This document shows positions 40,553-64,000 of a DNA stretch of 64,000 bases, piece by piece; the stretch's first letter is position 1, and each line of letters begins with the position of its first letter. Position numbers and translations under genes: made by a program. Under the pieces are notes generated by a model. It did not search any database. It was not told the DNA's origin and saw only the letters and a program-made list of their open reading frames with translations. This stretch comes from Gymnodinialimonas ceratoperidinii (lineage in GTDB: Bacteria; Pseudomonadota; Alphaproteobacteria; Rhodobacterales; Rhodobacteraceae), in NCBI RefSeq assembly GCF_019297855.1, contig NZ_CP079194.1:2839501-2903500 (forward strand), written 5' to 3'.

Positions 40553-41908
40553 ATGAACGAACAAGCCACGCCCCGCCCGATGATCCAGGCCCCGAGCCAC
40601 CCCGGCGCCCACGAAGGCTACATGCCCGGCTTCGGCAACGATTTCGAAACCGAGGCCCTGCCCGGCGCCCTGCCTCAAGGCATGAACTCGCCCCAGAAGG
40701 TGAACTACGGCCTCTACGGAGAGCAACTCTCTGGCACCGCCTTCACCGACGTCCGCCCCGAGCGGACCTGGTGCTACCGCATCCGCCCCTCGGTGAAGCA
40801 CTCGCATTGCTACGAAAAGATCGACCTGCCCTACTGGCGCTCCGCCCCCCATGTGGACCCCGACGTCGTCTCGCTCGGCCAGTACCGGTGGAATCCCGTG
40901 CCCCATTCCGAAGAGAAGCTCACCTGGCTGACCGGCATGCGCACGATGACCACGGCGGGCGACGTCAACACCCAGATCGGCATGGCGAGCCACATCTACC
41001 TCGTGACCGAGAGCATGGTGGACGACTACTTCTACTCCGCCGACAGCGAGCTTCTCGTCGTGCCCCAGGAAGGCCGCCTGCGCTTCTGCACCGAACTGGG
41101 CATCATCGATATCGCCCCGCAGGAGATCGCCATCATCCCTCGCGGTCTCGTCTATAGGGTCGAGGTGCTTGAAGGCCCCGCCCGCGGTTTCGTCTGCGAG
41201 AACTACGGCGCCAAGTTCGAACTGCCCGGTCGCGGCCCGATCGGCGCCAACTGCCTGGCCAACCCGCGCGACTTCAAGGCCCCCGTCGCCGCCTACGAGG
41301 ACCGCGAGGTGCCCTCCACCATCACCATCAAGTGGTGCGGCCAGTTCCACACCTCGAAGATTGGCCAGAGCCCGCTGGACGTCGTCGCTTGGCACGGCAA
41401 CTACGCGCCAATGAAATACGACCTGAAGACCTATTGCCCCGTCGGCGCGATCCTCTTCGATCACCCCGATCCGTCGATCTTTACCGTGCTCACGGCCCCC
41501 TCGGGCCAGCCCGGCGTCGCCAATATCGACTTCGTCCTCTTCCGCGAGCGCTGGATGGTGGCGGAAGACACGTTCCGGCCGCCGTGGTATCACAAGAACA
41601 TCATGTCGGAGCTGATGGGCAACATTTACGGCCAATACGACGCGAAACCGAAAGGGTTCATTCCCGGTGGCGTCTCGCTGCACAACATGATGCTCCCCCA
41701 CGGCCCCGACAAGAACGCCTTCGAGGGCGCGTCCAACGCCGATCTCAAGGCCGAGAAACTCGACAACACCATGTCGTTCATGTTCGAAACCCGCTTCCCC
41801 CAGCACCTCACCGCCTTCGCCGCGAAAGAGGCCCCCCTGCAGGACGATTACATCGACTGCTGGACCAGCCTGGAGAAGAAGTTCGACGGCACCCCGGGCA
41901 AGAAATGA
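40553..41908 (+). CDS. hmgA: Homogentisate 1,2-dioxygenase
   Basis: Fe(II) ring-cleavage enzyme (451 aa, normal length) converting homogentisate to maleylacetoacetate. The N-terminal signature [18 protein letters not shown] and the conserved [14 protein letters not shown] are present. Iron-site residues fall in the C-terminal cupin around [18 protein letters not shown] (His, Glu) and [11 protein letters not shown] (His). The start at 40553 follows CGGAGG; a longer frame to 40496 would run through the operator palindrome. It heads the catabolic cluster and is followed by small accessory genes, maiA and fahA. Confidence 0.96.
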
Positions 41909-42217: not shown

Positions 42218-42571
42218 ATGCATATCGACGGATTTGTCATCCCGGTGAAAGCCTCCCGCAAGGATGAATACGCAAGCAGCGCCAAGCGCATTCTCGACAT
42301 CTACCGCAAGCACGGCGCCACCCGCTGCGTGGAATGCTGGGGCGAAGGCATGGACCAAGGCGACATCACCTCCTTCCCGCGCGCCGTGCGGGCTGCCGAG
42401 GATGAAGCGATCGTGTTCTCTTGGATGGAATTTCCCGACAAGGCGACGGCTGAGGCAGCCCACAAGGCGGTCTGGGAAGACCCCGCGATGGCCGAGATCA
42501 TGTCCGACGACCTCGTCGATGGAAAACGGATGATCATGGGCAGCTTTGACCTGCTGCTGGACGTCCAATGA
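42218..42571 (+). CDS. DUF1428 family protein
   Basis: Protein of 117 aa. MHIDGFVIPVKASRKDEY and GATRCVECWGEGMDQGDITSF, with FSWMEFPDKATAEAAHKAVWEDP, match the DUF1428 (dimeric ferredoxin-like alpha/beta barrel) family. Function is unknown. The start at 42218 gives the family N-terminus; a longer upstream frame is not conserved in character. It overlaps maiA by 4 bp, so it is coupled to homogentisate degradation and may be an accessory to the isomerase step or a detoxifying protein; this is inference. Confidence 0.82.
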   Translation: MHIDGFVIPVKASRKDEYASSAKRILDIYRKHGATRCVECWGEGMDQGDITSFPRAVRAAEDEAIVFSWMEFPDKATAEAAHKAVWEDPAMAEIMSDDLVDGKRMIMGSFDLLLDVQ

Positions 42572-43200
42572 TCCTTTATTCCTACTGGCGCTCCACCACC
42601 TCCTACCGCGTGCGCGCGGCGCTCAACCTCAAGGGTATCGCCTACGAGCAACGCGCCGTCGACCTCGTGGCGGGTGACCAGCGCACGCCCGACTACATGG
42701 CGGTCAACCCCGCCAAGGGCGTCCCGGCGCTGGAACTCGAAGACGGCACCCTGCTCACCCAGAGCCTCGCGATCCTCGACTACCTCGACGCCCGCCAGCC
42801 CGAGCCACCGCTGCTCCCCGCGGAGCCGCTCCTGCGCGCCCGCGTCCTTGCGGTGGCCCACAGCATCGCCCTAGACATCCACCCGGTGAACAACCTGCGC
42901 GTACTCGGCCACCTGATGGGCCACTTCGATGCCACCTCCGAAGACGCGCGCGCCTGGATGTGCCACTGGATGACCGAAGGCCTCACCGCCGTCGAAGCCC
43001 TCCTGCCCACGCGCGCCGACTTCGCGTTCACCGAGGCGCCGGGCCTCGCCGATCTCTGCATCACCGCGCAATGCTACAACGCGCACCGATGGGGTCTCTC
43101 CCTTGATCCCTTCCCGAAAATCGCCCGGGTCGAGGCCGCCTGCCTCGCCCTCCCCGAAATCCGCGCCGCCGCCCCCGAGGCGCAACCCGACGCCCCCTGA
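42568..43200 (+). CDS. maiA: Maleylacetoacetate isomerase
   Basis: Zeta-class glutathione S-transferase (210 aa) that isomerises maleylacetoacetate to fumarylacetoacetate using glutathione. The N-terminal thioredoxin-like domain has YSYWRSTTSYRVRAALNLKG (the usual SSCS active-site loop is RSTTS here) and NPAKGVPALELEDGTLLTQS for glutathione binding. The C-terminal helical domain follows. It overlaps the DUF1428 gene and is followed by repeat copy 2 and then fahA. Confidence 0.92.
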   Translation: MILYSYWRSTTSYRVRAALNLKGIAYEQRAVDLVAGDQRTPDYMAVNPAKGVPALELEDGTLLTQSLAILDYLDARQPEPPLLPAEPLLRARVLAVAHSIALDIHPVNNLRVLGHLMGHFDATSEDARAWMCHWMTEGLTAVEALLPTRADFAFTEAPGLADLCITAQCYNAHRWGLSLDPFPKIARVEAACLALPEIRAAAPEAQPDAP

Positions 43201-43275: not shown

Positions 43276-44526
43276 ATGTCCGACCTGAAACGCTCCTGGA
43301 TCACCTCCGCGAATTCCGAGTCCACCGACTTCCCCCTCAACAACCTGCCCTACGGCGTCTTCTCCGTCGACGACGGCGACCTGCGCTGCGGCGTGGCCAT
43401 CGGCGACCGGATCATCGACGCCACCGGGCTGGAACAGGCCGGCCACCTGCGCGCCGACCCCGAGGCCGATGTGCTCGATGCGCCCTACTGGAACGACTTC
43501 ATGGAACTGGGCGCCCGGGCCTGGTCCGCCTACCGCGCCGCGCTGACCGAGATGCTCGCCGAGGGCGCCGACGAGGCCACGCAGGACATCATCACCACCT
43601 TCTCCGTGCCGATGGCCGAGGCCACCCTGCACCTGCCGTTCCGCGTCGCGGAATACACCGACTTCTACGCCGGCCGTCACCACGCCACGAACGTCGGCAC
43701 CATGTTTCGCGGCGCCGAGAACGCCCTGCCGCCGAACTGGCTGCACATCCCCATCGGCTACAACGGCCGCGCCTCCTCCGTGGTGGTCTCCGGCACCGAG
43801 ATCCGCCGCCCCTGGGGCCAGCTGAAGTCCCCCGATCACGACACGCCGATCTTCGCCCCCTCGCGCCGCTTCGACATCGAGCTGGAATTGGGCGCCATCG
43901 TCGGCACCCCTTCGGAAGGCCCGCTGACCGTCGACCAGGCCGATGCGAACATCTTCGGCTACGTCCTGCTCAACGACTGGTCGGCCCGAGACATCCAGGC
44001 CTGGGAATACCAGCCCCTCGGCCCCTTCCAGGCCAAGGCCACCGCCACCACCATCAGCCCCTGGATCGTCACCGCCGAGGCCCTGCGCCCCTTCCGCGTC
44101 TCGACGCCCGAGCGCGAGGTGCCGCTCTTGCCGCACCTGGCCGACACCACGCCGATGAACCACGACATCGCCCTCGCGGTGAGCCTGAATGGCGAGGAAA
44201 TTGCCCGCACCAACGCCGATGAGCTCTACTACTCCGCCGCGCAGCAACTGGCCCACCACGCCTCTGCCGGCAGCCCGATGCGCGCGGGCGACCTGCTTGG
44301 CTCCGGCACCATCTCCGGCCCCGAGAAAGAGAACCGCGGCTCGCTGCTGGAACTCTCCTGGGGCGGCAAGGAGCCGCTCGAGACGGCCTCCGGTCCCCGC
44401 TCCTTCATCGAGGACAACGACACCCTCGCCCTGCACGGCGCCTCCCACGGCAACGGCTACCGCATCGGCTTCGGCCCCTGCGAGGGCGAGGTCATCCCCG
44501 CCGCCGAGGATCCCTTCACCGGCTGA
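43276..44526 (+). CDS. fahA: Fumarylacetoacetase
   Basis: Hydrolyses fumarylacetoacetate to fumarate and acetoacetate (416 aa, the length of the eukaryote-like two-domain enzyme). The N-terminal SH3-like domain includes NLPYGVFSVDDGDLRCGVAIG. The catalytic domain has YTDFYAGRHHATNVGTMFRG (His/Asp metal site), PNWLHIPIGYNGRASSVVVS and LELGAIVG (Glu ligands), and LNDWSARDIQAWEY. It is the final enzyme of the homogentisate route. Repeat copy 3 follows the stop. Confidence 0.96.
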   Translation: MSDLKRSWITSANSESTDFPLNNLPYGVFSVDDGDLRCGVAIGDRIIDATGLEQAGHLRADPEADVLDAPYWNDFMELGARAWSAYRAALTEMLAEGADEATQDIITTFSVPMAEATLHLPFRVAEYTDFYAGRHHATNVGTMFRGAENALPPNWLHIPIGYNGRASSVVVSGTEIRRPWGQLKSPDHDTPIFAPSRRFDIELELGAIVGTPSEGPLTVDQADANIFGYVLLNDWSARDIQAWEYQPLGPFQAKATATTISPWIVTAEALRPFRVSTPEREVPLLPHLADTTPMNHDIALAVSLNGEEIARTNADELYYSAAQQLAHHASAGSPMRAGDLLGSGTISGPEKENRGSLLELSWGGKEPLETASGPRSFIEDNDTLALHGASHGNGYRIGFGPCEGEVIPAAEDPFTG

Positions 44527-44629: not shown

Positions 44630-45580
44630 ATGGCCAAAGCATTCGCGTCGCAAGGCGACATGACAGAAAAGAAAATCACCTTCGACGAGATCGGCGAGGG
44701 GCTCTATGCCTTCACCGCCGAGGGGGACCCCAACTCCGGCGTCATCATTGGCGACGACAGCGTGATGATCATTGAGGCCCAGGCCACGCCGCGCCTTGCC
44801 AACAAGGTGATCGACTGCGTGCGCTCGGTCACCGACAAGCCGATTTCGCACCTTGTACTGACTCATTACCACGCCGTCCGCGTGCTCGGCGCCTCGGCCT
44901 ATGACGCGCCGCAGATCATCATGTCGGACACGGCCCGTTCCATGGTCGTGGAACGCGGGCAGGAGGACTGGGACAGCGAGTTCCAGCGCTTCCCCCGCCT
45001 GTTCGAGGGCCACGAGAGCATCCCCGGCCTCACATGGCCCACCACCACGTTCTCCGACGCGATGACCGTCTATCTCGGCTCGCGCCGGGTCGACATCTCC
45101 CACGTCGGCCGGGCCCATACGGCAGGCGACGCGGTGATCCACGTGCCTGACGCCAACGTGCTCTTCACCGGTGACATCGTCGAGGATCACTCCGCCTGCT
45201 ATTGCGGCGACGGCCATTTCGCCGATTGGGGCAATACGCTCGACAACATCGCGGCCTTCCAGCCTGACGCCATTGCGCCGGGGCGCGGCGGCGCGCTGAT
45301 CGGTGACGAAGCGGTGGACCGCGCCATCGCCTCCACCCGCGATTTCGTCAATTCCACCTATGCCCCCGCCGCCCGGGTCGCCGCGAAGAACGGCACCCTC
45401 AAGGACGCCTGGGACGCGGTGCGCGCCGAATGCGATCCGAAGTTCGCAGACTACGCGATCTATGAGCATTGCCTGCCCTTCAACGTCGCCCGCGCCTATG
45501 ACGAGGCCCGCGGCATCGACCACCCGCGCATCTGGACCGACAAGCGCGACATCGAGATGTGGGAGCAGCTGCAAGGCTGA
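44630..45580 (+). CDS. Metallo-beta-lactamase-fold hydrolase with altered metal motif
   Basis: MBL-fold protein (316 aa). NSGVIIGDDSVMIIEAQATP and THYHAVRVLGASAY mark the first strand and the metal motif. Later metal-ligand positions are in GRAHTAGDAVIHVPDANVLF, TGDIVEDHSACY and APGRGG. The canonical HxHxDH is changed to H-Y-H-A-V-R, so the second zinc site ligands Asp and His are absent; one metal may still bind. The alternative start at 44660 (MTEKKITFDE) is possible. It lies between fahA and a flavin monooxygenase and probably acts on an aromatic or thioester intermediate; substrate is unknown. Confidence 0.83.
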   Translation: MAKAFASQGDMTEKKITFDEIGEGLYAFTAEGDPNSGVIIGDDSVMIIEAQATPRLANKVIDCVRSVTDKPISHLVLTHYHAVRVLGASAYDAPQIIMSDTARSMVVERGQEDWDSEFQRFPRLFEGHESIPGLTWPTTTFSDAMTVYLGSRRVDISHVGRAHTAGDAVIHVPDANVLFTGDIVEDHSACYCGDGHFADWGNTLDNIAAFQPDAIAPGRGGALIGDEAVDRAIASTRDFVNSTYAPAARVAAKNGTLKDAWDAVRAECDPKFADYAIYEHCLPFNVARAYDEARGIDHPRIWTDKRDIEMWEQLQG

Positions 45581-45656: not shown

Positions 45657-47267
45657 ATGGTCGGCGCCACCTACGCCCTCGCCCACGAACTCTACCCCTA
45701 CGCGCGTGTTCCCGATCAGGATGCGCCGGCCCTGCGACATCATCCGGTGATCATCATCGGCGGCGGTCCCATTGGCGTGGCGACCGGCCTCGACCTCGCG
45801 CAGAAGGGCACGCCAGCGCTGATCCTCGATGATCACGACGGCGTGGGCCAAGGCTCACGCGCGATCTGCTTCGCCAAACGCACGCTGGAGATTGCCGACC
45901 GCCTGGGCGCGGGCGCGCCGATGCGCGAGAAGGGCGTGGTCTGGAATACAGGCCGCGTCTTCCATGGCGACGGTGAGGTTTTCAACTTCAATCTTCTACC
46001 AGAAGACGGCCATCGCAACCCCGCCTTCATCAACCTGCAGCAGCCTTACTTCGAGAAGTTTCTCGTCGATGCCCTCCGCCGCGCCGAGGCCGAGGGCCGC
46101 CCGATCGAGATCCGCGGCCGCAATGTCGTTACCGGCATCACCCAGGACGCGGACAAGGTCACGCTGAGCATCGAAACCCCCGACGGCCCCTACCAAGCCA
46201 CCGCCGATTACGTCATCGCCTGCGACGGCGCGCGCTCGCCCACCCGCGAGGCGATGGGTCTCACCTTCGACGGCCGCGTGTTCGAGGACAACTTCCTGAT
46301 CGCCGACGTGAAGATGACCGCCCCGTTCCCCACTGAGCGCTGGTTCTGGTTCGAGCCGCCCCTCTCCGCCGCGCCGCAGTCCGCGCTGCTGCACAAGCAG
46401 CCCGACGACGTCTGGCGCATCGACTTCCAGCTTGGGTGGGACATCGACCGCAAAGCAGAGCTCGCCGAGGATCGCATCCGCCAGCGCATCGACGAATTCC
46501 TGCCCGAGGGCACCGAGTACGAGCTGGTCTGGACCTCGATCTACACCTTCCAGTGCCGCCGGATGGAGCGCTTCCGCCACCAGCGGGTGATCTTCGCGGG
46601 CGATAGCGCGCATCAGGTCTCGCCCTTCGGCGCGCGGGGGGCCAACTCGGGCATACAGGACGCCGACAACCTCGCCTGGAAACTTGACCTCGTGCTCAAG
46701 GGCCACGCCCCCGACAGCCTGCTCGACAGCTACCACGAGGAACGTGCCCACGGCGCCGATGAGAACATCCTCAATTCCACCCGCGCCACTGACTTCCTGA
46801 CGCCCAAGTCCGAGATCTCGAAAATCTTCCGCAATGCCGTCCTCACGCTCGCCAAGGATCATCCCTTCGCGCGGCCAATGGTCAACTCCGGCAGGCTTTC
46901 GGTGCCCTGCAGCTACGCGGGCCTCTCGCTGACCGGGGAGGACGCCCTGCCCGGCGGGCCCGCGCGCACCGCCCCCGGCGCGCCCTGCTGCGATGCGCCG
47001 CTGGAGGCGGGCTTCCTGCTCGATCACTTGCCGGGGCAGTTCACCCTACTGGCGCTCGGCTGCGCCGCGCCGGAGGTGTCGCACCCGCTGCAGGTGAAGC
47101 TGCTGACCATTGCGGATCCCACCCCGGCGCTGCGGGAGCGTTACCTCGGCGATGCGCCGTCCGCGCTCTACCTAATCCGGCCCGACCAGCATGTCGTGGC
47201 CCGATGGAACAACGCCTCGCCCGACCAGATCATCCACGCAATCAACGCCGCGACAGGCCAGCCATGA
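45657..47267 (+). CDS. FAD-dependent aromatic-ring monooxygenase (MhpA/TfdB/PheA-like)
   Basis: Class A flavoprotein hydroxylase (536 aa). The FAD motif VIIIGGGPIGVATGLDLAQKG (about residue 30), DYVIACDGARSPTREAMG (DG motif) and VIFAGDSAHQVSPFGARGAN (GD motif) are all present. The C-terminal thioredoxin-like domain ends SALYLIRPDQHVVARWN. The start at 45657 follows CGGAG. It lies beside hmgA/maiA/fahA and could ortho-hydroxylate a hydroxyphenylacetate to homogentisate, but that substrate is inferred. It overlaps the DUF2783 gene by 4 bp. Confidence 0.87.
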   Translation: MVGATYALAHELYPYARVPDQDAPALRHHPVIIIGGGPIGVATGLDLAQKGTPALILDDHDGVGQGSRAICFAKRTLEIADRLGAGAPMREKGVVWNTGRVFHGDGEVFNFNLLPEDGHRNPAFINLQQPYFEKFLVDALRRAEAEGRPIEIRGRNVVTGITQDADKVTLSIETPDGPYQATADYVIACDGARSPTREAMGLTFDGRVFEDNFLIADVKMTAPFPTERWFWFEPPLSAAPQSALLHKQPDDVWRIDFQLGWDIDRKAELAEDRIRQRIDEFLPEGTEYELVWTSIYTFQCRRMERFRHQRVIFAGDSAHQVSPFGARGANSGIQDADNLAWKLDLVLKGHAPDSLLDSYHEERAHGADENILNSTRATDFLTPKSEISKIFRNAVLTLAKDHPFARPMVNSGRLSVPCSYAGLSLTGEDALPGGPARTAPGAPCCDAPLEAGFLLDHLPGQFTLLALGCAAPEVSHPLQVKLLTIADPTPALRERYLGDAPSALYLIRPDQHVVARWNNASPDQIIHAINAATGQP

Positions 47268-47458
47268 CCCTGAACACCGACCTGAACATCCCCGACCCCG
47301 ACGGCTTCTACGACGAGCTTCTCCGCGCTCACGAGGGGCTCGACAAGGCGCAGTCCGACGCGCTGAACGCGCGGCTGATCCTGATCCTTGCCAATCACAT
47401 CGGAGACCGGGAGACCCTCCGAGACGCCTTGGCAGCGGCGAGGGGCGAGGACGGCTAA
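47264..47458 (+). CDS. DUF2783 family protein
   Basis: Small protein of 64 aa, MTLNTDLNIPDPDGFYDELL and then ANHIGDRETLRDALAAARGE. The pattern fits DUF2783, which I know mainly as a small partner encoded just after FAD-dependent hydroxylases. The ATG overlaps the monooxygenase stop. No membrane segment or Cys motif. It may be an accessory of the hydroxylase. Confidence 0.78.
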   Translation: MTLNTDLNIPDPDGFYDELLRAHEGLDKAQSDALNARLILILANHIGDRETLRDALAAARGEDG

Positions 47459-48887: not shown

Positions 48888-48985
48888 TCTCGCGCGCCGT
48901 GATTGAGGAGGGTTCCCGGCGGCACCGGGTAGGCGCCGCAGGGAGTGGGCAGCAGGCGGACACATACGGCCCGCCCGCGCCGCGA

Positions 48986-49540: not shown

Positions 49541-50052
49541 TGGTCGCCGTAGCCTCCCCAGAAGGACGCATCGGTAAGGATGGCCACAGGTTTGTTGCAC
49601 ATGAAGGTGTATTTCAGGATCGCGTCCAGCTCGTCCGCGTCACTCTCCTTGTGGAAGTGATAGGTCGGGATGTTCAGCTGGTTCAGGAGCGCCTTGGTAT
49701 GGACCGCCATCTCGACCTGGCAGGCCACCGGCTCGCGCAGTTCGCCCCGGTAGGAGATCAGCATCGGCAGAGGCATCCGGTAGTACTGCGTCAGCGTGGC
49801 CAGCGTGTTGATCGTCACGCCGATCGCGGTGTTCTGCATGATGATCGCCGGGCGCTTGCCGCCCATGAACGCACCGGCGCAGAGACCCATGCCCTCGTCT
49901 TCCTTGTTGGCAGGGATGTGAAAGATCTCGGGCCGGGTCTCGACCTCGTCGATCACGCCGGCCAGCTGCTTGCAGGGAACGGTGGTGATGAAGGACACGT
50001 CGTTGGCGACGAAATCGTCAACGATCTTCTTTGAAATACTCACGGGCGTCAC
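49537..50052 (-). CDS. comD: Sulfopyruvate/phosphonopyruvate decarboxylase, alpha (PYR-domain) subunit
   Basis: Pyrimidine-binding subunit (171 aa) of the decarboxylase. FVANDVSFITTVPCKQLAGV, IPANKEDEGMGLCAGAFMGG (with the activating Glu) and IIMQNTAIGVTINTLATLTQ are typical. The start is a GTG at 50052 that overlaps the upstream dehydrogenase stop (GTGA); a second GTG at 50043 is possible. It is fourth in the hpsN operon. Both halves being present and coupled implies an obligate heteromer. Confidence 0.87.
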   Translation of the reverse strand: MTPVSISKKIVDDFVANDVSFITTVPCKQLAGVIDEVETRPEIFHIPANKEDEGMGLCAGAFMGGKRPAIIMQNTAIGVTINTLATLTQYYRMPLPMLISYRGELREPVACQVEMAVHTKALLNQLNIPTYHFHKESDADELDAILKYTFMCNKPVAILTDASFWGGYGDQ

Positions 50053-53120: not shown

Positions 53121-53211
53121 CTGGCGAAGTCCTATCGGTGGCTCAAATCACGGTGGGAAGGCCTTGGCGCGTGACACTCTCGACGCGACGTGGCGATTCC
53201 GTCAGTAGCGT

Positions 53212-53225
53212 TGTAAGCCTTTACA
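53212..53225. promoter_or_regulatory. LacI-type operator 1 between hpsN and the LacI gene
   Basis: TGTAAGCCTTTACA is an imperfect palindrome (TGTAA...TTACA). It is repeated 23 bp further right, putting the two sites about two helical turns apart. It lies 91 bp from the hpsN start. Confidence 0.75.
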
Positions 53226-53234
53226 TCGCCACAA

Positions 53235-53248
53235 TGCAAGCCTTTACA
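53235..53248. promoter_or_regulatory. LacI-type operator 2 between hpsN and the LacI gene
   Basis: TGCAAGCCTTTACA differs from operator 1 at one base. It lies 41 bp upstream of the regulator ATG, so it may mediate autoregulation as well as control of hpsN. Confidence 0.75.
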
Positions 53249-53289
53249 TTTTGCACCCAAAAGCGAAAGCCGATAGGACGAATGACAAG

Positions 53290-54312
53290 ATGACCGCGCC
53301 GCGCCCCACTCCAACCCTGCATGATGTTGCGAAGCTCTCGGGCTATTCGACGGCGACGGTCTCGCGCTGTCTGAATTTCCCGAAACAGGTCTCGGAGAAG
53401 ACCCGCGCCAAGGTGATGGCGGCAATCGCGGAACTTGGCTATTCGCCCAACTTCGGCGCCCGGGCGATGGCGGCGCAGCGGACCAACACCATCGGCGCGA
53501 TCATCCCGACGATGGAAAACGCGATCTTTGCGCGCGGGCTGCAGGCATTTCAGGAAGAGCTGAACGCCCACGGCTACACCCTGCTGGTCGCGAGCTCCTC
53601 CTACCGCGGCGATCTGGAAGAGAGCCAGATCCGCTCCTTGGTGGCACGCGGCGCCGACGCGCTCTTGCTGGTGGGCCACCAGCGCGCGCCGGAGATTTAT
53701 CAGTTTCTGGAGGCGCAGCAGGTGCCGGCCGTGGTCACCTGGGCCTATGCCCCCGACGGCCCCCGCCCCTGCATCGGCTTCGACAACCGCGCCTCGATGC
53801 GGAAAATGGCTGAAGAGGTCCTGCGTCACGGCCATCGGCGGCTCGCGATGATTTCAGCCGCTTTCGCCAGCAACGACCGCGCGGTGGCACGGCGCGACGG
53901 AATCCTTCAGGCGCTGGAAGCCGCAGGTATGGCGCCGGAGGCGCTGCAGGTGATCGAGACGCCCTACGGCATCGAAACCGGAGCGGAGGCCTTCGCGGAC
54001 CTGATGCAGGGCGAGGCACCGCCGACCGCAGTGCTCTGCGGCAACGACGTGCTGGCCGTCGGCGCGCTGAACCGCGCCCGTGAGATGGGTCTGTCGGTGC
54101 CCCGCGACGTGTCGATCGTGGGCTTTGATGATATCGAATTGGCGCAGGTGGCCTATCCGGCGCTTACCACCGTGCATGTGCCCCATCGCGAAATGGGACA
54201 AAAGGCGGCGGCGGCGCTGATCCGGCGGCTTGGCGGTGGCGGCGAGATCGCGGGGGAAGAACTGTTCACCGAATTGCGTCTGCGCGACAGTTTGGGGCCC
54301 GTGCCGGTTTGA
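53290..54312 (+). CDS. LacI-family regulator of the hps/com operon
   Basis: Regulator of 340 aa. The HTH is TPTLHDVAKLSGYSTATVSR near the N-terminus, then YSPNFGARAMAAQRTNTIGAI. The effector domain ends with SIVGFDDIELAQVAYPALTTV. The start at 53290 fits the ordinary N-terminus; the frame extends to 53251 without a good ribosome site. It is divergent from hpsN and has two tandem candidate operators in the gap. Expected effector: DHPS or sulfolactate. Repeat copy 4 lies after its stop. Confidence 0.92.
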   Translation: MTAPRPTPTLHDVAKLSGYSTATVSRCLNFPKQVSEKTRAKVMAAIAELGYSPNFGARAMAAQRTNTIGAIIPTMENAIFARGLQAFQEELNAHGYTLLVASSSYRGDLEESQIRSLVARGADALLLVGHQRAPEIYQFLEAQQVPAVVTWAYAPDGPRPCIGFDNRASMRKMAEEVLRHGHRRLAMISAAFASNDRAVARRDGILQALEAAGMAPEALQVIETPYGIETGAEAFADLMQGEAPPTAVLCGNDVLAVGALNRAREMGLSVPRDVSIVGFDDIELAQVAYPALTTVHVPHREMGQKAAAALIRRLGGGGEIAGEELFTELRLRDSLGPVPV

Positions 54313-54360
54313 CCGCTCGGGAAGGAGCCGCCGGCGGCGTGACGCAGGCTGGCCGGGCTT

Positions 54361-54394
54361 TTGAGTTGTATTGGCCAAGATGAAGGAGGGAGCG
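54361..54394 (-). repeat. Interspersed TTCATCTTGG repeat, copy 4
   Basis: Read on the minus strand, GCTCCCTCCTTCATCTTGGC (54394-54375) continues CAATACAACTCAA. It lies 72 bp after the livF stop in livF's own direction and 49 bp beyond the convergent LacI stop, again in a gene-end position. Confidence 0.7.
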
Positions 54395-54465
54395 GCGCAC
54401 TCCAGCGACCGAGGCGTGCGGTGTGACGCGGGAAGCCTCCTTGTTGGCGTGCGGTGCGCCACGGC

Positions 54466-55221
<756 letters not shown>

Positions 55222-55286
55222 CTGTAATCTCCGATCAGCGCGGGAGCGCAGGGGGCGGCGGCGATGTGGGCGGCGGCGGTGGCGGG

Positions 55287-56045
55287 TCAGACCTGCGCGT
55301 CGCCGAGGTAGGCTTCGCGGACCTTGGGATGGCCCTTGATGTTCTCGGGAATGTCCTCGACCAGTGGCGTGCCCTGGGCAAGTACGGTGATCCGGTCCGC
55401 AAGGCTGAAGACCACGTGCATGTCGTGCTCGATGATCGCCATCGTGATGTTGCGGGACTGGCGGATCTCTTTCAGCAGTTCGATCGTGTTGTTGGTGTCG
55501 GCCCGCGCCATGCCTGCCGTCGGCTCATCAAGCAGCAACAGACGCGGGTTCTGGACCAGCGACATCGCCATCTCCAGCCGCCGCTTGTCGCCGCGCGAAA
55601 GTGAGCCTGCGAGCATCTCGGTCTTCTTCTCCATGCCGACTTCGCGCAGCATCTCCATCGCCTGGGAGAGCACATCCGTCTCTTGCCCGATGGATTCGTA
55701 GGCGTGCAGCCGGAACGAGCCGTCGCGCCCGGCGAAGCAGGGGATCAGCACGTTTTCCAGCACCGTCTGATCGGCGAAGATCTCGGGCGTCTGGAAGACG
55801 CGGCTGATGCCCATCTGGTTGATCTGGTGCGGCTTGCGCCCGAGCACGTTCTGGCCGTCGAAGAGCACCGTCCCGCTGTCGGGGATCAGCTTGCCCACCA
55901 GCACGTTGAGCAGCGTCGACTTGCCGGCACCGTTCGGCCCGATGATGGCGTGGCAGCCGCCCTCCTGCACGTCGAGGTTCACGTCGCCCAGAGCCTGCAG
56001 GCCGCCGAAGCGTTTGTTCACGCCACTTACTTCAAGGATACCCAT
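55287..56045 (-). CDS. livG: HAAT-family (Liv-type) ABC transporter ATPase LivG
   Basis: Second ATPase (252 aa). Walker A is AIIGPNGAGKSTLLNVL, the signature is modified to GSLSRGDKRRLEMAMSL, Walker B is RLLLLDEPTAGMA, and the H-loop is TMAIIEHDMHVV. GISRVFQTPEIFADQTVLEN is the LivG-type Q-loop region. It lies 12 bp after livM and 65 bp before livF. Confidence 0.92.
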   Translation of the reverse strand: MGILEVSGVNKRFGGLQALGDVNLDVQEGGCHAIIGPNGAGKSTLLNVLVGKLIPDSGTVLFDGQNVLGRKPHQINQMGISRVFQTPEIFADQTVLENVLIPCFAGRDGSFRLHAYESIGQETDVLSQAMEMLREVGMEKKTEMLAGSLSRGDKRRLEMAMSLVQNPRLLLLDEPTAGMARADTNNTIELLKEIRQSRNITMAIIEHDMHVVFSLADRITVLAQGTPLVEDIPENIKGHPKVREAYLGDAQV

Positions 56046-56057
56046 GGTCGTCGTCTC

Positions 56058-57281
56058 CTATTCGCCCGGCTTGGTGGCGGTTGTCGTATCGGCAGCCTCG
56101 CCCGTGACGGTGGTGTCGCCCTCGGTCTTGCGGCCGAAGAGCCCCGAGATACGCTTGCCGCCCTCCACGATGCCACCGGGCAGGAAGATCACCACCAGCA
56201 TGAACACGAGACCCAGTGTCAGGTGCCAGCCGGAGCCCACGAAGGGGTAGATGATGTTCACCAGCGTGTTCTCCAGCCATTCCGGAAGGCCTGCGAACCA
56301 GTTGTGCAGAACGGTGGAGCCGATGGTCGAGATGATCGATTCAAGGTAGGCGATGACGCCGGCGCCGAGGATCGGGCCGATCAACGTCCCTGCCCCGCCG
56401 AGGATGGTCATCAGCACCACCTCGCCCGACGCGGTCCAGAGCATCCGCTCGGCCCCGGCCAGCGGGTCCATCGCGACCATCAGGCCACCGGCGAGGCCCG
56501 CATACATGCCCGAGATCACGAAGGCCGCCAGCGCATAGGGGCGCGGGTTGAGACCGGTGTAACTCATCCGGGTCTGGTTGGATTTGATCGCCCGCAGCAT
56601 CAGGCCGAAGGGTGAGCGGAACAGCCGGACCGAGAGGTAGAAGGCCACCAGCATGACGAAACCGCAAAGGTAGTAGCCGACGTTGAAGGTGAAGTTCCAA
56701 CCGGCGAGCGCCAGCTCGAAGCTCGACCCCATTTCCAGCCCGAAGAGGTGTGGCGCGGGGATGTTGCCGTCTGCTGCCTGCGTCGCGCCGATCACGCGCG
56801 GGTCGTTGAGCGAGAGCGTCAGGCCGGTTTCACCGCCCGTCACCGGGGTCAGCACCGAATAGGCCAGCGAGTAGCACATCTGTGCGAAGGCCAGCGTCAG
56901 GATCGAGAAGTAGATGCCCGTGCGCCGTAGCGAGACGAAGCCGATCAGCAGCGAGAACAGCCCCGCCACGATGACCGAGACGATCAGCGCCGGGATGACG
57001 TTCATCGTCAGCAGCTTCATCATCCAGACCCCGGCGTAGGACCCCACGCCCAGGAAGGCCGCGTGGCCGAAGGAGAGGTAGCCCGTGAGCCCGAAGAGGA
57101 TGTTGTAGCCCACCGCGAAGATGCCGAAGATCACCAGCTTCTGCATCAGGTCCGGGTAGCCTGCGTTGAACTGCGCCATGCCGACGCCGTCAGGGAACGG
57201 GTTCAGGATGAATGGTGCGAATACCACCAGCGCCACGACGATCAGGAAGAGCCGGGTGTCTTTGCCGTTAAGTCCGAGCAT
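56058..57281 (-). CDS. livM: HAAT-family ABC transporter permease LivM
   Basis: Inner-membrane permease (407 aa) with about ten hydrophobic helices. Motifs are [41 protein letters not shown] and [16 protein letters not shown]. It carries a longer than usual hydrophilic C-terminal tail ([20 protein letters not shown] and onwards). It starts 3 bp after livH. With livH it forms the channel of the importer. Confidence 0.92.
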
Positions 57282-57284
57282 TGC

Positions 57285-58316
57285 TCAATCCTCCATCACG
57301 CCCTTGCGGCCAAGCAGGCCACGGGGACGGGTCAATAGTACGATTACGGCGACGAGGTAGATGATCACCTGGTTGATGCCGGGAACGAGTTCGATGATCG
57401 CGGACATGGAGGCAAAGCTCTGCAGGATGCCGAGCAGGAAGCCCGCCAGCACCGCGCCGCCAAGGCTGCCCATGCCGCCGACAACCACCACCACGAAGCT
57501 GAGCACGAGGAAGTCCATCCCCATGTGGTAATTGGGCGAGAGGATCGGCGTGTACATGACCCCCGCGAGCCCCGCGACGACAGCCGCGATGGCGAAGACG
57601 ATGACGAAGCGCCGGTCGATGTCGATGCCCAGAAGGCCCACCGTCTCGCGGTCGGCCATGCCGGCGCGCACGACCATGCCGAAGGTGGTGAACTGGAGGA
57701 AGGCGAAGACCGCGGCGATGATGATTGCCGAGAAGCCGAAGTATACGAGGCGCCAGTACGGATACATGATCGCGAAGGGATCGAAGCCGAAGAGCTGACC
57801 GATGTCGAAGGACCCGGTGAAGGCAGAGGGCGCGGGCGTCGGGATCGGGTTGGCGCCGTAGAAGGCCTTGATGATCTCCTGCAGGACGATGGCGAGGCCG
57901 AAGGTCACAAGGATCTGGTCGGCGTGGGGGCGCTTGTAAAAATGCTTGATCAGCCCGCGCTCGATGGCGACGCCGATGACCGCCATGATCGGGATCGCGA
58001 TCAGCACCGAGAGCGGCACCGCCCAGTCGACCATCGCGTTGCCCACGCTCTCGCCGAACCACGACACCACGTAGGGCGTGTCGATGGTCATCGGGTTGCC
58101 GAGGAAGTCGGTCCGCGTCTCGTCCACGACCTCGTAGGAGGTGCCGAGCAGACGCTTGACGGTGACGGCGACGAAGGCGCCCATCATGAACAGGGCGCCG
58201 TGGGCGAAGTTCACCACCCCAAGGGTCCCGAAGATCAGCGTCAGCCCCAGCGCGATCAGCGCGTAGGCCGAGCCTTTGTCGAGGCCGTTGAGAACTTGAA
58301 GGATGATCGCTTCCAT
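57285..58316 (-). CDS. livH: HAAT-family ABC transporter permease LivH
   Basis: Inner-membrane permease (343 aa). GLDKGSAYALIALGLTLIFG, VVNFAHGALFMMGAFVA, RPHADQILVTFGLAIVLQEI and VVVVGGMGSLGGAVLAGFLLG are LivH motifs between hydrophobic helices. A periplasmic loop of about 40 residues follows the second helix (YEVVDETRTDFLGNP region). It lies 154 bp after the binding-protein gene, separated by a strong stem-loop. Confidence 0.92.
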   Translation of the reverse strand: MEAIILQVLNGLDKGSAYALIALGLTLIFGTLGVVNFAHGALFMMGAFVAVTVKRLLGTSYEVVDETRTDFLGNPMTIDTPYVVSWFGESVGNAMVDWAVPLSVLIAIPIMAVIGVAIERGLIKHFYKRPHADQILVTFGLAIVLQEIIKAFYGANPIPTPAPSAFTGSFDIGQLFGFDPFAIMYPYWRLVYFGFSAIIIAAVFAFLQFTTFGMVVRAGMADRETVGLLGIDIDRRFVIVFAIAAVVAGLAGVMYTPILSPNYHMGMDFLVLSFVVVVVGGMGSLGGAVLAGFLLGILQSFASMSAIIELVPGINQVIIYLVAVIVLLTRPRGLLGRKGVMED

Positions 58317-58427
58317 GGCTTTCCCCGTTCAGAAGGCAGAATTCATTCGGTCCGCGCCTGTCGATGCGCGGTTGCAACAATGGCCCACGTTGCGGCGGGC
58401 AATCGGTCGAGAGTGAAGAGAGAGGCA

Positions 58428-58456
58428 TCGGGCCCCTGCGCGTGGCAGGGACCCGA
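58428..58456 (-). terminator. Strong stem-loop between the HAAT binding protein and livH
   Basis: TCGGGCCCCTGC (58428-58439) pairs with GCAGGGACCCGA (58445-58456): twelve positions with one mismatch and a 5-nt loop. It lies 14 bp after the binding-protein stop in its direction of transcription. A short pyrimidine-rich stretch follows. It probably causes partial termination or protects the binding-protein message. Confidence 0.65.
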
Positions 58457-58470
58457 CGATTTGCTCACGA

Positions 58471-59847
58471 TCAGGCGCCCGGGTTGCAGGTGCCCAGATC
58501 GCCGCCGGCGAAGTCCGGGTGATCGGTGGCGTAGGTCGCATCTTCGCGCGAGGTGATGTCGACGATTTCCACGAGATCGAATTCGTTCTCGGGGTTCTCC
58601 TTGCCGCGCACCACGACCACGTCCTTGAAGCACTGGTGATCGTCGGCACGGTAGAGGGTCGGGCCGTTGCCCAGACCGTCGAATTCGAAGCCTTCCAGCG
58701 CCTCGACCACGGAGCAGGGGTTGAAGCTGCCGCCCCGCGACACCGCGTCTGCGTAGAGCATGGTCTGAGCGTAGCAGGTCTGCGCGGCCTGCGACGGCGG
58801 GAAGCCGTATTCCTGACCGAAGGACTGAACGAAGGCATTGGTGCCCGCGTAGCGGTCGCCGCGCTCGTTCTCGATCTTCCAGTCCCAGTTCTGCGAGCCG
58901 AGGATGCCGGCGATGTTGCTGCCCGCACCACGTGCCATCAGCTCGGAGTAGAGCGGCACGACGATCTCGAAGTTGACGCCGTCCACCTGCAGGTCGCGCA
59001 GGCCGAACTGCACCGCTTGCGTCAGCGAGTTGACCATGTCGCCACCGTAGTGGTTCAGGATCAGCAGGTCGGCGCCGGAGTTGGCGACCGGGGTGATGTA
59101 GGACGAGAAGTCGCCCGCGCCCACCGGGGTCAGAACGGCGTTGGTGGTCTCCCAACCCATGTCCTCGGTGTAGGTCTGCATCGAGCGCTGCTGCGACCAG
59201 CCCCAGGTGTAGTCGGCAGTCAGGTGATAGGCGCGGCGGTCGGTGCCGTAAGCGGCCTCGAGGATCGGCGCCAGCGCACGGCCGGACTGCTCGGTGTTGA
59301 AGAAGTGGCGGAAGCCGTTGGCCCGGCGGTCCTTGCCGGTCGTGTCGTTGGAGTGGGTCAGGCCGGCCATGAAGATCACGCCGGCGTCCTGGCAGAGACC
59401 CTGCACGGCGATCGCCACACCGGAAGACGAGCCGCCGGAGATCATGATCGCCCCGTCGCGCTCGATCATCGAACGGGCCGAGGAGCGTGCGGCGTCGGAC
59501 GACGTCTGCGTGTCACCGGTGACATATTCGACGCGGCGACCAAGGATACCCGTGCCGTCGAGCGCGCTGGACGAGAAGGTGTTGAGCATCCCGCCGTCGC
59601 CTTCACCGTTCAGGTGCTTGACCGCCAGCTGGAACGCGCGCAGCTCGTCCGCGCCCTCATCGGCGTAGGCGCCGGTCTGCGGCACGTTGAAGCCGAGCGT
59701 GACAGAGCTGTCGCCGGGCGCGTTGGTGAAGCCCGTATGTGCATCGGCCCAGACGCGGCCGGTGAAAATCGTGGGTACTGCAAGGGCGGCGCCCGTGACG
59801 GCACCTGACTTGAGCATGTTGCGACGGGTAAAGTTACCTTTCGACAT
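58471..59847 (-). CDS. HAAT-family ABC transporter substrate-binding protein, Tat-exported
   Basis: Periplasmic receptor (458 aa). The N-terminus MSKGNFTRRNMLKSGAVTGA carries a twin-arginine motif (TRRNMLK) and hydrophobic core, then AVPTIFTGRVWA-D as cleavage region, so it is likely exported folded. The Peripla_BP_6 fold is seen from SVTLGFNVPQTGAYADEGAD, ISGGSSSGVAIAVQGLCQDA and ADLLILNHYGGDMVNSL. It starts the five-gene operon; an AT-rich 240-bp region upstream holds its promoter. Ligand unknown; nearness to the hps genes makes a sulfonate possible, but urea, amides and amino acids are the common ligands. Confidence 0.9.
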   Translation of the reverse strand: MSKGNFTRRNMLKSGAVTGAALAVPTIFTGRVWADAHTGFTNAPGDSSVTLGFNVPQTGAYADEGADELRAFQLAVKHLNGEGDGGMLNTFSSSALDGTGILGRRVEYVTGDTQTSSDAARSSARSMIERDGAIMISGGSSSGVAIAVQGLCQDAGVIFMAGLTHSNDTTGKDRRANGFRHFFNTEQSGRALAPILEAAYGTDRRAYHLTADYTWGWSQQRSMQTYTEDMGWETTNAVLTPVGAGDFSSYITPVANSGADLLILNHYGGDMVNSLTQAVQFGLRDLQVDGVNFEIVVPLYSELMARGAGSNIAGILGSQNWDWKIENERGDRYAGTNAFVQSFGQEYGFPPSQAAQTCYAQTMLYADAVSRGGSFNPCSVVEALEGFEFDGLGNGPTLYRADDHQCFKDVVVVRGKENPENEFDLVEIVDITSREDATYATDHPDFAGGDLGTCNPGA

Positions 59848-60995: not shown

Positions 60996-63900
60996 ATGAC
61001 CCTGCGCTTCTTCTCTGACAAAAAGCGCCCCGTGCACATGGGCCCCTTCCCTTGCGAACGCCTTGCGCGACTGACCGGAATGCCGGACCTCTCCATGGTG
61101 CCGCCTGCGCGGCAGTTGTCCTTCGAGGCCGAAGATTCTCGCTCCATCATCAACGCGATGCGCGAGCATCAGGCGATGCTGGACGCCATCCGCGACGGGC
61201 TGGTGAACAGGAAGGTGGCCGAGGCCCCCACCGATCCGCAAGAGCGCGCCCGGCACCTGAAGGCCTTCGGATATTTCTCGGACGCGGCCGTGGTGGGCAT
61301 CTGCGATTTGCCCCGCGCCGCGTTGCTGGAGAAGCCGCATGTGAACCCCGACGTCGGCCGCCTCGCCCAGGATTTGCGCACCCGACAGACCAAGACGCTG
61401 GCCGCCGGGATCGACATGATCATGGCGGACCTCAAGGAGAGCATGGAGGCGCCGCCCTCGGGCATCGAGGGGCACACCCATGCGCTGGTCGTCCTGTTCG
61501 AGAACCCGCGCGCGCCCGAGGCTGACGAACCCGGCACCGGCTGGATCGCCGACGCGCAGGCCCACCGCGCCGGGCTGCTGGCCTCGGAAGCCGCCGTGGT
61601 CCTTGCCAACTACCTGCGGGTTCTGGGACACCCCGCGCGCGGACATACGGCGTCGAGCGCCGATGTAGACCTGCACAAGCTGGCCGTCGCGGCGGGCCTT
61701 GCGACCGTTGAAGACGGGGAGTTGACCCACCCCTACATCGGCACGCGCTTCGGTCTCGCCGCCGTGACCACCAGCTTCGAGATGGCCCCCGACAGCCCCC
61801 TCGCGCCGCTGGACGCGCAGCCGAAATCCGCCTTCGGGCTCGGCTGGAAACTCGGCACGGCCTCAGCCCGGAATGCGCTCAACGCCCTGCCCTACGCCAA
61901 GCGCCGCTTCGTCGACGGCGCCCATCCCTTCGAGACGCTCAAACGCGTGGAGGAGCCGACCACCTACATCGACGAGCCAAACGTGGCGCGGGTGCCCAAG
62001 CGCACGGACATGTTCGCGCGCGGCCAGTTCGGCGACATGGGCAAGAAGATGCAGGAGGCCGCGAAGGGCGGACATTACGTGCGCAAGGCCGCGCCCTCCA
62101 TGGCGCAGCGCCGTGCGCTCGGGGCCTTCGTGCTGCTGCAGGACGGCACTCCCGCTCCTGAGAAAATCCACCTCGACCCGCAAGAGGCCGCCGAGTTGGT
62201 CAAGGCCACGAGCTACTGGCTCGGCGCCGACGCCATCGGCATCTCGCGCTGCCCCGACTGGACGTGGTACAGCCACGACGCGCGCGGCGAGGCGATCGAC
62301 CCGCCCCACGATCAGGCGATCAACATGATCATCGACCAGGGCTACGAGACGATGGAGGGCTCCAGCGGCGACGACTGGATCGCCGTGGCGCAATCGATGC
62401 GCGCCTACCTCCGCTTCTCGCTGATCGGCGGGGTCATCGCGCGGCAAATCCGCAACCTCGGCTATAGCGCCAAGGCCCATACCGTGATGGATGGCGAGGT
62501 GCTGCAACCGCCGCTCCTGCTCCTGTCTGGCCTCGGTGAGGTCAGCCGTATCGGCGAGGTCATCCTCAACCCCTTCCTCGGCCCGCGCCTGAAGTCCGGC
62601 ACGGTGACGACGGACCTGCCCCTCGCGCACGACAAGCCCATCGACTTCGGCCTGCAGCGCTTCTGCGAAAGCTGCAACAAATGTGCGCGCGAATGCCCCT
62701 CCGGCGCGATCACGGCGGGGCCAAAGCTGATGTTCAACGGCTACGAAATCTGGAAAAGCGACAGCCAGAAATGCGCCACTTACCGGGTAACGACGCCGGG
62801 CGGGGCCATGTGCGGGCGCTGCATGAAGACCTGCCCGTGGAACCTCGAAGGGATCTTCAAGGAAAAGCCGTTCCAATGGGCCGCGATGAAGGTGCCGCAG
62901 CTTGCACCGGCGCTGGCGAAGCTGGACGACGTGGTGGAGAACGGGACCCTCAACCCCGTGAAGAAATGGTGGTGGGACCTCGAGATCGACGAGGACGGCG
63001 GCTATCGCCCGACACCCCATCCGGTGAACGCGCGGGCGCTGCAGAAAGACCTCGACCTGCGCTACGAGGACCAGACCCTCGCCGTCTACCCCGCACCGCT
63101 GGCCCCGCATCCCTACCCCTATCCCTTCCCGATGGACCGCGAGGCCGGGATCGCCGCCTACCAGGCGATGATCACCGCCGAGGAATACAAGGCCCTGCTG
63201 GAACGGGACGAGCGCGGCCACCTGCATGTCTACACCGCCGAAGGCGAAAGCCCTGTGATACAGGTGGAGATCACCCGCGCCGAGGTGAGCGCCGAGGGCG
63301 TGACGCTCTACGACTTCGCCCCGGTGAATGGCGGACTGCTGCCGAAATGGCGCGCGGGCGCGCATCTCGATATCGTCGTGGCGCCCGAGTTCCTGCGCCA
63401 ATACTCCATGTGCGGCGACCCGGCCGATCGCAGCCGCTACCAGATTGCAGTGCTGCGCGAAGAGGCGGGACGCGGCGGCTCCAAGCTGATGCACCGCATT
63501 TTCACCGAGGGGCGGCGGGTCTTTATTTCCCGCCCGATCAATCACTTCCCCCTCGACGCTCATGCAACGAAGTCCTTCCTGATGGGGGGTGGCATCGGCA
63601 TCACGCCAATGATCGCCATGGCCCATGAGCTCCACGCCGCGGGCCGTGATTTCGAGATGCATTACTCCGGCCGCTCCCGCGCCACGATGGGCCTCCTCCC
63701 CGAGATCGCCGCCGCCCCCTGGGCCGACCGCGTGCGCCTCCACGTCACCGACGAAGGCTCCCGCGCCGATTTCGCCGCGATCCTCGAAGGCTACCGTCCC
63801 GGCTGGCACCTCTACACCTGCGGGGCAGAGCGCTACATGGCGAGCGTCATGGAAGCCGCCGAGGCCGCCGGCTTCCCCGAAGAGGCGCGGCATCTGGAGT

Positions 63901-64000
63901 ATTTCTCGGTCCCCGAGGTGCCCGATTACGTGAACCACCCCTTCCACCTGAAGCTCGCCCGCTCGGGCCGCACCCTGGAAGTGCCCGCCGACAAAAGCGC
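60996..64000 (+). CDS. Reductive dehalogenase fused to an NAD(P)H flavin/[2Fe-2S] reductase (partial, runs off right edge)
   Basis: Open frame of at least 1001 codons from ATG 60996 (MTLRFFSDKKRPVHMG). Residues about 1-690 are a corrinoid reductive dehalogenase: GLGEVSRIGEVILNPFLGPR near residue 515, TTDLPLAHDKPIDFG, then two [4Fe-4S] sets, C557-x2-C560-x2-C563-x3-C567-P and C593-x12-C606-x2-C609-x3-C613-P. From about 750 comes a phthalate-dioxygenase-reductase-like module: RQYSMCGDPAD (flavin), LMGGGIGITPMIAM (NAD(P)H) and LYTCGAERYM. A [2Fe-2S] ferredoxin domain begins near 982 (HPFHLKLARSGRTLEVPAD) and is cut by the edge. There is no Tat signal and no rdhB nearby, matching cytoplasmic, non-respiratory BhbA-type enzymes that dehalogenate halophenols. 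Confidence 0.9.
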   Translation, partial: MTLRFFSDKKRPVHMGPFPCERLARLTGMPDLSMVPPARQLSFEAEDSRSIINAMREHQAMLDAIRDGLVNRKVAEAPTDPQERARHLKAFGYFSDAAVVGICDLPRAALLEKPHVNPDVGRLAQDLRTRQTKTLAAGIDMIMADLKESMEAPPSGIEGHTHALVVLFENPRAPEADEPGTGWIADAQAHRAGLLASEAAVVLANYLRVLGHPARGHTASSADVDLHKLAVAAGLATVEDGELTHPYIGTRFGLAAVTTSFEMAPDSPLAPLDAQPKSAFGLGWKLGTASARNALNALPYAKRRFVDGAHPFETLKRVEEPTTYIDEPNVARVPKRTDMFARGQFGDMGKKMQEAAKGGHYVRKAAPSMAQRRALGAFVLLQDGTPAPEKIHLDPQEAAELVKATSYWLGADAIGISRCPDWTWYSHDARGEAIDPPHDQAINMIIDQGYETMEGSSGDDWIAVAQSMRAYLRFSLIGGVIARQIRNLGYSAKAHTVMDGEVLQPPLLLLSGLGEVSRIGEVILNPFLGPRLKSGTVTTDLPLAHDKPIDFGLQRFCESCNKCARECPSGAITAGPKLMFNGYEIWKSDSQKCATYRVTTPGGAMCGRCMKTCPWNLEGIFKEKPFQWAAMKVPQLAPALAKLDDVVENGTLNPVKKWWWDLEIDEDGGYRPTPHPVNARALQKDLDLRYEDQTLAVYPAPLAPHPYPYPFPMDREAGIAAYQAMITAEEYKALLERDERGHLHVYTAEGESPVIQVEITRAEVSAEGVTLYDFAPVNGGLLPKWRAGAHLDIVVAPEFLRQYSMCGDPADRSRYQIAVLREEAGRGGSKLMHRIFTEGRRVFISRPINHFPLDAHATKSFLMGGGIGITPMIAMAHELHAAGRDFEMHYSGRSRATMGLLPEIAAAPWADRVRLHVTDEGSRADFAAILEGYRPGWHLYTCGAERYMASVMEAAEAAGFPEEARHLEYFSVPEVPDYVNHPFHLKLARSGRTLEVPADKS

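Follow-up and report, generated by a model that had tools for sequence, protein, structure and literature searches.

A self-sufficient reductive dehalogenase of Gymnodinialimonas ceratoperidinii and a genomic hint of its natural substrate

What does a reductive dehalogenase with a built-in electron supply act on, and where do its products go? The question is raised by rdhA, a gene at the right-hand end of a stretch of 64,000 nucleotides from Gymnodinialimonas ceratoperidinii (contig NZ_CP079194.1, positions 2,839,501 to 2,903,500 of the forward strand; the window, in what follows), in which an original prediction, made from the letters alone, had seen a self-sufficient fusion of a reductive dehalogenase (RdhA) to an NAD(P)H reductase. 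Marine algae and invertebrates make brominated aromatics in quantity, and to our knowledge the bacteria and routes that recycle these compounds in oxygenated water are poorly known. As to what the protein is, we can answer with considerable confidence that it is a cytoplasmic, self-sufficient catabolic RdhA with its own electron supply, whose class and mechanism would be those of JtRdhA and NpRdhA, two enzymes introduced below. As to what it acts on, halogenated hydroxyphenylacetates are more likely than any other one class to be the physiological substrates, and this second answer is offered tentatively, since we would put it at slightly under an even chance.

The protein and its cofactor sites

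Is the fusion genuine? In the host genome, a single contig of 3.62 Mb, rdhA is complete: it starts with ATG, encodes 1068 residues with no internal stop and has a stop codon ending at 64202, 202 bases past the window edge. A full-length, stop-free match is found in 30 of 101 relatives (the own genome counted), which excludes a fusion made by sequencing, and the other 102 rows of our tree are relatives with the identical fused layout, two of them (L060 and L106) being cut by contig ends. The frameshift between the two halves about which the original prediction had been wary is not seen, and an artefactual fusion is ruled out.

The dehalogenase half matches the RDH family TIGR02486 at E 2.6e-60, above the cut-off, and in a family search of the whole genome this is the only gene to pass. 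The best solved relative is NpRdhA of Nitratireductor pacificus (E 3e-163 in a search of the PDB, over residues 3-105 and 159-744), whose alignment also covers most of a vestigial N-terminal domain; a second, weak RDH match there is expected, given the vestigial duplicate described for NpRdhA. The stretch that the alignment skips, residues 106-158, is filled at 52 or more of its 53 positions across the 103 aligned rows (102 relatives and the query), and is possibly the insertion described for RdhA-reductase fusions in the available part of PMC10463259. Towards the C-terminus, phthalate dioxygenase reductase (2pia) matches residues 752-1001 and the reductase halves of CYP116B P450s match as well; the flavin motif R801-Q-Y-S and the NAD(P) motif GGGIGITP at 864 are both in place, as had been proposed. 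Foldseek, run with a predicted structure, returned NpRdhA at 39% identity and 2pia at 35%; this AlphaFold (AF2) model has a mean pLDDT of 65, was built on a shallow alignment of 30 rows that are 69-83% identical, and serves for fold recognition only.

Are the cofactor and active sites intact? All eight cysteines of the two [4Fe-4S] motifs, C557-C567 and C593-C613, stand exactly where the original prediction had put them and are shared by every one of the 103 rows. Past the window edge, where it had placed the rest of a [2Fe-2S] domain, the four cysteines C1017, C1022, C1025 and C1053 are present, their columns holding cysteine in 102, 102, 102 and 101 of the 103 rows and gaps in the remainder. 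The NpRdhA residues F291, S422, M423, Y426, K488 and R552 (a list taken from the available part of PMC10463259) correspond, counted by hand on the pairwise alignment, to F340, S467, M468, Y471, K533 and R597, each again invariant in 103 of 103 rows, so that the Tyr-Lys/Arg set checked against NpRdhA is complete. Could the protein nevertheless have moved past dehalogenation, to serve some other cobalamin- or Fe-S-dependent reduction? Its substrate is a predicted one, and the related B12/Fe-S enzyme epoxyqueuosine reductase, QueG, gives a weak match, but the invariance of six active-site residues and eight cysteines, together with the reported activity of JtRdhA, a homologue of the same architecture (PMC10463259, in part), makes this very improbable indeed.

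The cytoplasmic location that had been proposed is likewise supported. No RRxF occurs in the first 60 residues, by a pattern test for a Tat signal and not a signal-peptide predictor, and no membrane anchor gene adjoins rdhA, since no gene is called between it and either neighbour (gene calls at the locus; the RdhB family itself was not searched). A respiratory RdhA of the PceA/CprA type is rejected on these two results, and a truncated catabolic RdhA of the NpRdhA type by the fused reductase. As for regulation, no B12 riboswitch or other Rfam RNA reaches the gathering score in 19,501 bases around rdhA, and no sigma-70-like promoter was found in positions 5200-8900 of L002, where shuffled sequences gave a mean of 0.5.

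How would such an enzyme work? The self-sufficient architecture is already known and characterised in JtRdhA of Jhaorihella thermophila, for which we draw on the available part of PMC10463259. By that description JtRdhA is likewise an RdhA fused to a phthalate-dioxygenase-reductase-like module, with no Tat signal and the same six active-site residues; unlike the window protein it is biochemically proven, being NADPH-driven and tightly coupled and working in air with a kcat of 600 per min per cobalamin. Its substrate range is broad, with 3,5-dibromo-4-hydroxybenzoate the best substrate (100%), 3-bromo-4-hydroxyphenylacetate at 99.3% and 3-bromo-4-hydroxybenzoate at 49.7%, and it enables Escherichia coli W to grow on 3-bromo-4-hydroxyphenylacetate. 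Bromo and iodo substrates are turned over, whereas the chloro-analogues tested gave no turnover and only inhibited (PMC10463259).

The domains, the metal-binding and active-site residues and the genomic distribution of the window protein can be read directly; its electron route, its use of NADPH, its preference for bromine and iodine and its oxygen tolerance would follow by homology to JtRdhA and NpRdhA. On that footing the protein is very likely to remove bromine or iodine from molecules of the phenol type, and NAD(P)H is its probable driver. NAD(P)H would donate a hydride to the flavin in the C-terminal reductase half, and single electrons would travel from there by way of the [2Fe-2S] cluster and both [4Fe-4S] clusters until they reach cobalamin. 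Reduced cobalamin would then take off a bromine or iodine ortho to the phenolic hydroxyl, hydrogen replacing the halogen, with Tyr471 as putative proton donor assisted by Lys533 and Arg597, and the phenolic product would be degraded aerobically. The genome probably makes the cobalamin itself, judged by the late B12-synthesis gene cobQ, the one pathway gene sought, which is present above cut-off.

Several known systems share parts of this design. BhbA, encoded on plasmid pBHB of Comamonas sp. 7D-2, shares the complete architecture, being 51.4% identical along 100% of the length, but it lies on an outlying branch of the tree and its gene stands beside pobA and ligAB. NpRdhA (PDB 4ras and 6zxu) shares the RdhA core, the vestigial duplicate and the Tyr/Lys/Arg set at 39% identity, but has no fused reductase and is without most of the stretch at residues 106-158. 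Self-sufficient CYP116B P450s (PDB 6kbh and 6laa) have a fused reductase module of this kind (flavin, NAD(P)H, [2Fe-2S]), with a heme P450 where the RdhA sits here.

Gene neighbourhoods and the substrate question

Which compounds, then, are we to expect? The original prediction had named marine bromo- or chlorophenolics, with the products feeding aromatic pathways elsewhere in the window. Bromine stands, and iodine joins it, on the example of JtRdhA; chlorophenols are weakened by the same data and have become doubtful (PMC10463259, in part). As for the pathway, the window does hold an mha/hmg-like (homogentisate) cluster, at 40553-47455 on the same strand as rdhA, and this cluster is a recurrent neighbour of rdhA in relatives; here it ends 13.5 kb upstream, and the link is a genomic one.

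At 45657-47455 we find the layout of MhaAB, an FAD_binding_3 flavoprotein and a partner of about 60 residues beside hmg genes, as in the MhaAB-HmgABC systems of Pseudomonas putida U and Burkholderia xenovorans LB400. According to the available part of PMC3053370, MhaB is 60 residues long, mhaA sits beside hmg genes in LB400, MhaAB of P. putida U is specific for 3-hydroxyphenylacetate, and 4-hydroxyphenylacetate can be turned into homogentisate in other bacteria. MhaB would belong to DUF2783, the family of the small partner here. Unlike the system described there, the window cluster has an extra MBL hydrolase and is joined by rdhA in relatives, and its MhaA label comes from family and context.

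How often do the two meet? At 106 loci, genes were called by a codon-usage script and neighbours within six genes were clustered; removal of near-identical duplicates (L127, L128 and L133) left 103 distinct loci with flanks of up to 8 or 10 kb, some of which stop at contig edges. Near rdhA in these 103 loci stand a generic ABC ATPase (14 loci), an MBL hydrolase (12), an FAD monooxygenase (12) and HmgA (11), and further aldehyde dehydrogenases including HpaE (11), TRAP genes (10 and 9), MaiA (9), Fah (9) and MarR regulators (8 and 7). By tblastn within the loci, 14 of the 103 have mhaA no more than 10 kb from rdhA, and 13 have hmgA there; mhaA is near in 10 of the best 80 of 587 contig loci, a set taken by similarity to the query, which favours its own clade. 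There are four main arrangements. In L039, L125, L126, L129 and L130, mhaB is the gene immediately ahead of rdhA and shares its strand, with 81-107 bases between aligned ends; in L035, L037, L041, L054 and L061 the two are convergent, and in L033 they are divergent; in L044 and L062, rdhA comes before hmgA, both on one strand. L062, from Sulfitobacter, is the nearest row outside the genus, and in it a MarR gene stands between rdhA and the run from hmgA to mhaA. In L074, mhaA is 7.8 kb upstream of rdhA and hmgA is absent, and in the sister genomes G002 and G006 mhaA lies 24 and 26 kb from an rdhA that is preceded by the same transporter genes as in the window (L118 and L120). In L037, L041, L054 and L064 the genes immediately before rdhA encode HpaE, HpaD, an HpaG-like protein and HpaH; when a single representative of each was checked, all but the HpaG-like protein scored above their family cut-offs.

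Both mhaA and rdhA are held by 26 of 101 relatives, nine of which have them within 30 kb, seven of the nine in the same genus (a hand count). In a wider sample of the family, 78 genomes have both genes among the matches listed (147 of 244 mhaA-positive genomes), and the two lie within 10 kb in 4 of 78 against 0.39 expected (3 of 76 when the window's genus is left out) and within 30 kb in 5 of 78 against 1.17 expected. Binomial p values, which assume 4 Mb genomes and independence, are 7e-4 within 10 kb, 6.7e-3 within 10 kb without the genus and 6.5e-3 within 30 kb, and the control pair paaA-rdhA gives 0 of 77 within 10 kb and 2 of 77 within 30 kb among the matches listed. The link of mha genes to rdhA looks real though sparse across the family.

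Three further arrangements concern the same neighbourhoods. A TRAP large permease, a family found near rdhA in 10 of the 103 loci, stands directly before it in L034, L046, L051, L053, L079, L105 and L145, and in L088, L112 and L116 it is found a few genes off, behind a MarR gene; the transporter is a possible uptake system for a halogenated acid. Genome G039 has one mhaA (64% to the window's) 1.7 kb from rdhA on contig C47 and a second (50%) 2.7 kb from hmgA on C39, as if the hydroxylase were paired with the dehalogenase. In L110, only about 3 bases (aligned ends) separate the end of pobA from an rdhA that follows it on one strand, an operon-like pair that supports a hydroxybenzoate role in that other branch of the tree.

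Does kinship of the RdhAs track their neighbours? Our tree of 103 rows was built by a quick procedure; 26 of its 100 inner forks are open, and L116 and L117 drew a long-branch warning. The window protein falls in a clade of 56 rows with 15 loci near aromatic genes, and in 14 of these the genes are those of hydroxyphenylacetate or homogentisate use (L064 through hpa genes alone, L054 with pobA in addition); L097 has pobA alone. Among the other 47 rows there are 11 aromatic-linked loci, ten with pobA or lig genes and one with mhaA, and the Fisher value for the split, which ignores kinship, is 2e-5. The state of linkage changes at least 10 times on the tree for mha and at least 7 times for pob/lig (three loci at 13-26 kb being scored as mha-linked, and L054 left out of the pob/lig state), so that neither linkage is one inherited block. 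Thirteen alignment columns separate the 14 hydroxyphenylacetate-linked from the 10 hydroxybenzoate-linked RdhAs; they are confounded by kinship and were not used.

The split also bears on a BhbA-like physiology, in which bromo- or iodo-4-hydroxybenzoate would be the substrate and the product would pass to PobA and the protocatechuate pathway. Ten of the 11 linked loci outside the window protein's clade speak for it, as do the place of the BhbA gene with pobA and ligAB, the best substrate of JtRdhA (PMC10463259, in part) and a PobA above cut-off in this genome. Here, however, pobA lies 2.28 Mb from rdhA by linear position, and within the protein's own clade just one of 15 linked loci has pobA without hydroxyphenylacetate genes, L054 having both; for the window protein we regard this account as possible and rather doubtful.

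A mobile gene for general debrominating and deiodinating detoxification of marine halophenols, adjacent to mha/hmg genes by opportunity or at an insertion hotspot, would sit well with the 77 of 103 loci, the window's own among them, that have none of the sought aromatic genes in their flanks, with the broad range of JtRdhA (PMC10463259, in part) and with a single genus holding RdhAs of several branches and contexts. A Roseobacter reductive dehalogenase, moreover, debrominates 2,6-dibromophenol. We nonetheless think it unlikely: after the generic ABC ATPase, the top three neighbour families are all members of the mha/hmg cluster, the mhaB-rdhA spacing in five loci is operon-like, and mhaA exceeds paaA in the comparison within 10 kb, but less so within 30 kb.

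The reading that we favour takes halogenated hydroxyphenylacetates as the physiological substrates, ending in homogentisate through the window's own MhaAB/HmgA-type cluster; the clade pattern, the near-best rate of JtRdhA on such a compound and the growth of E. coli W suggest it, gene neighbourhoods and the JtRdhA substrate range being its basis, and we hold it to be not quite an even bet. Candidate substrates would be bromotyrosine breakdown products, bromo-3-hydroxyphenylacetate and bromo-homogentisate; NAD(P)H-driven debromination could come before or after an MhaAB-type hydroxylation that yields homogentisate, and in relatives with hpaEDGH the debrominated product may go to homoprotocatechuate. 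For this genome the latter route is not supported, although it adjoins rdhA in four relatives.

Quite a number of points count against us. No catabolic or aromatic gene adjoins this rdhA, and 13.5 kb and an organosulfonate-like module separate it from the mha/hmg cluster, whose ring hydroxylase owes its identity to family and context. Across the wider family the mha-rdhA link is sparse, at 4 of 78 within 10 kb among the matches listed. The top substrate of JtRdhA is a hydroxybenzoate, and PobA makes 4-hydroxybenzoate an available sink here too; the genome has no clear HpaD, the best match to the one HpaD query, the only Hpa protein sought, being 28%. The activity of the protein is predicted from sequence and homologues, and a mediocre AF2 model (pLDDT 65) is no proof of cofactor geometry.

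Other genes of the window

The features discussed above are collected in Table 1.

Table 1. Positions of rdhA, its parts and the mha/hmg-like cluster in the window
Feature	Position	Strand	Basis or remark
rdhA, self-sufficient catabolic reductive dehalogenase	60996..64000	+	1001 of 1068 codons in window
Weak N-terminal RdhA-domain copy, vestigial, cobalamin-binding type	61230..61802	+	TIGR02486 E 2e-8, below cut-off
Residues 106-158, exceeding NpRdhA by about 40 residues	61311..61469	+	gap in NpRdhA alignment
Catalytic RdhA core with Y471, K533, R597	62307..62933	+	TIGR02486, above cut-off
Two [4Fe-4S] motifs, C557/560/563/567 and C593/606/609/613	62664..62834	+	Fer4 families, alignment
Phthalate-dioxygenase-reductase-like part and start of [2Fe-2S] domain	63249..64000	+	2pia E 2.6e-40
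hmgA, homogentisate 1,2-dioxygenase	40553..41905	+	TIGR01015, above cut-off
maiA, maleylacetoacetate isomerase	42568..43197	+	TIGR01262, above cut-off
fah, fumarylacetoacetase	43276..44523	+	TIGR01266, above cut-off
MBL-fold hydrolase of hmg cluster	44630..45577	+	Lactamase_B; recurrent rdhA neighbour in relatives (12/103)
MhaA-like FAD monooxygenase, candidate 3-hydroxyphenylacetate 6-hydroxylase large component	45657..47264	+	NF006002/PRK08132, above cut-off; FAD_binding_3
DUF2783 protein, 64 aa, candidate MhaB-like coupling protein	47264..47455	+	PF10932

Upstream of rdhA lie a divergently oriented gene with weak, below-cut-off similarity to spermidine synthase and a branched-chain-type ABC transporter, and downstream manC and a phosphomannomutase-like gene. 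The module between the mha/hmg cluster and rdhA (47772-59847) encodes both subunits of sulfopyruvate decarboxylase ComDE, above cut-off, along with an FMN dehydrogenase, a Zn alcohol dehydrogenase, a short-chain dehydrogenase (SDR), a HisD-like protein, a LacI regulator and a branched-chain-type ABC transporter, the last assigned by reading translations; it may serve the use of dihydroxypropanesulfonate or sulfolactate. Within the hmg cluster is a DUF1428 protein (42218-42568). Before the cluster, at 35782-40324, stands a DMSO-reductase-like set of a molybdopterin oxidoreductase (935 residues), a 4Fe-4S ferredoxin-type subunit and a DmsC-type anchor, the first two of which reach no NCBIfam cut-off among the matches listed.

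Spread of the fusion and its meaning

How common are such enzymes? An rdhA match occurs in 13 of 13 sampled genomes of the genus (the own genome counted), and in 149 of 394 genomes of the family, from 393 genera, at E 1e-200 or below, a few of them partial, which makes the trait a widespread one; 587 loci were confirmed in genome contigs. Eight plasmid records also have a match, pBHB included. Homologues of bhbA are described as widespread in the Roseobacter clade in the available part of PMC13101508. The rdhA genes of L111, L127 and L128 form one cluster at 97% or above, and the RdhAs of the window's genus (L118-L121, L124 and L125-L131) fall on three or more separate branches of the tree, pointing to repeated horizontal exchange of the gene.

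What the present analysis adds is a genomic hint that the natural substrate is a halogenated hydroxyphenylacetate entering the homogentisate pathway. A link between RdhA and homogentisate is not reported in the titles and abstract openings of the literature searched, which was mostly open-access. In this marine Rhodobacterales clade, RdhA may be the enzyme through which halogenated hydroxyphenylacetates enter an aerobic pathway, its sister RdhAs serving hydroxybenzoates and the genes having been joined repeatedly in differing orientations, a picture to which we give a little less than half our belief. If hydroxyphenylacetates do run in this way to homogentisate or homoprotocatechuate, bromotyrosine-type compounds would have a concrete carbon route, and neighbourhood and RdhA clade together would predict substrate, giving the field a rule by which to choose its enzymes.

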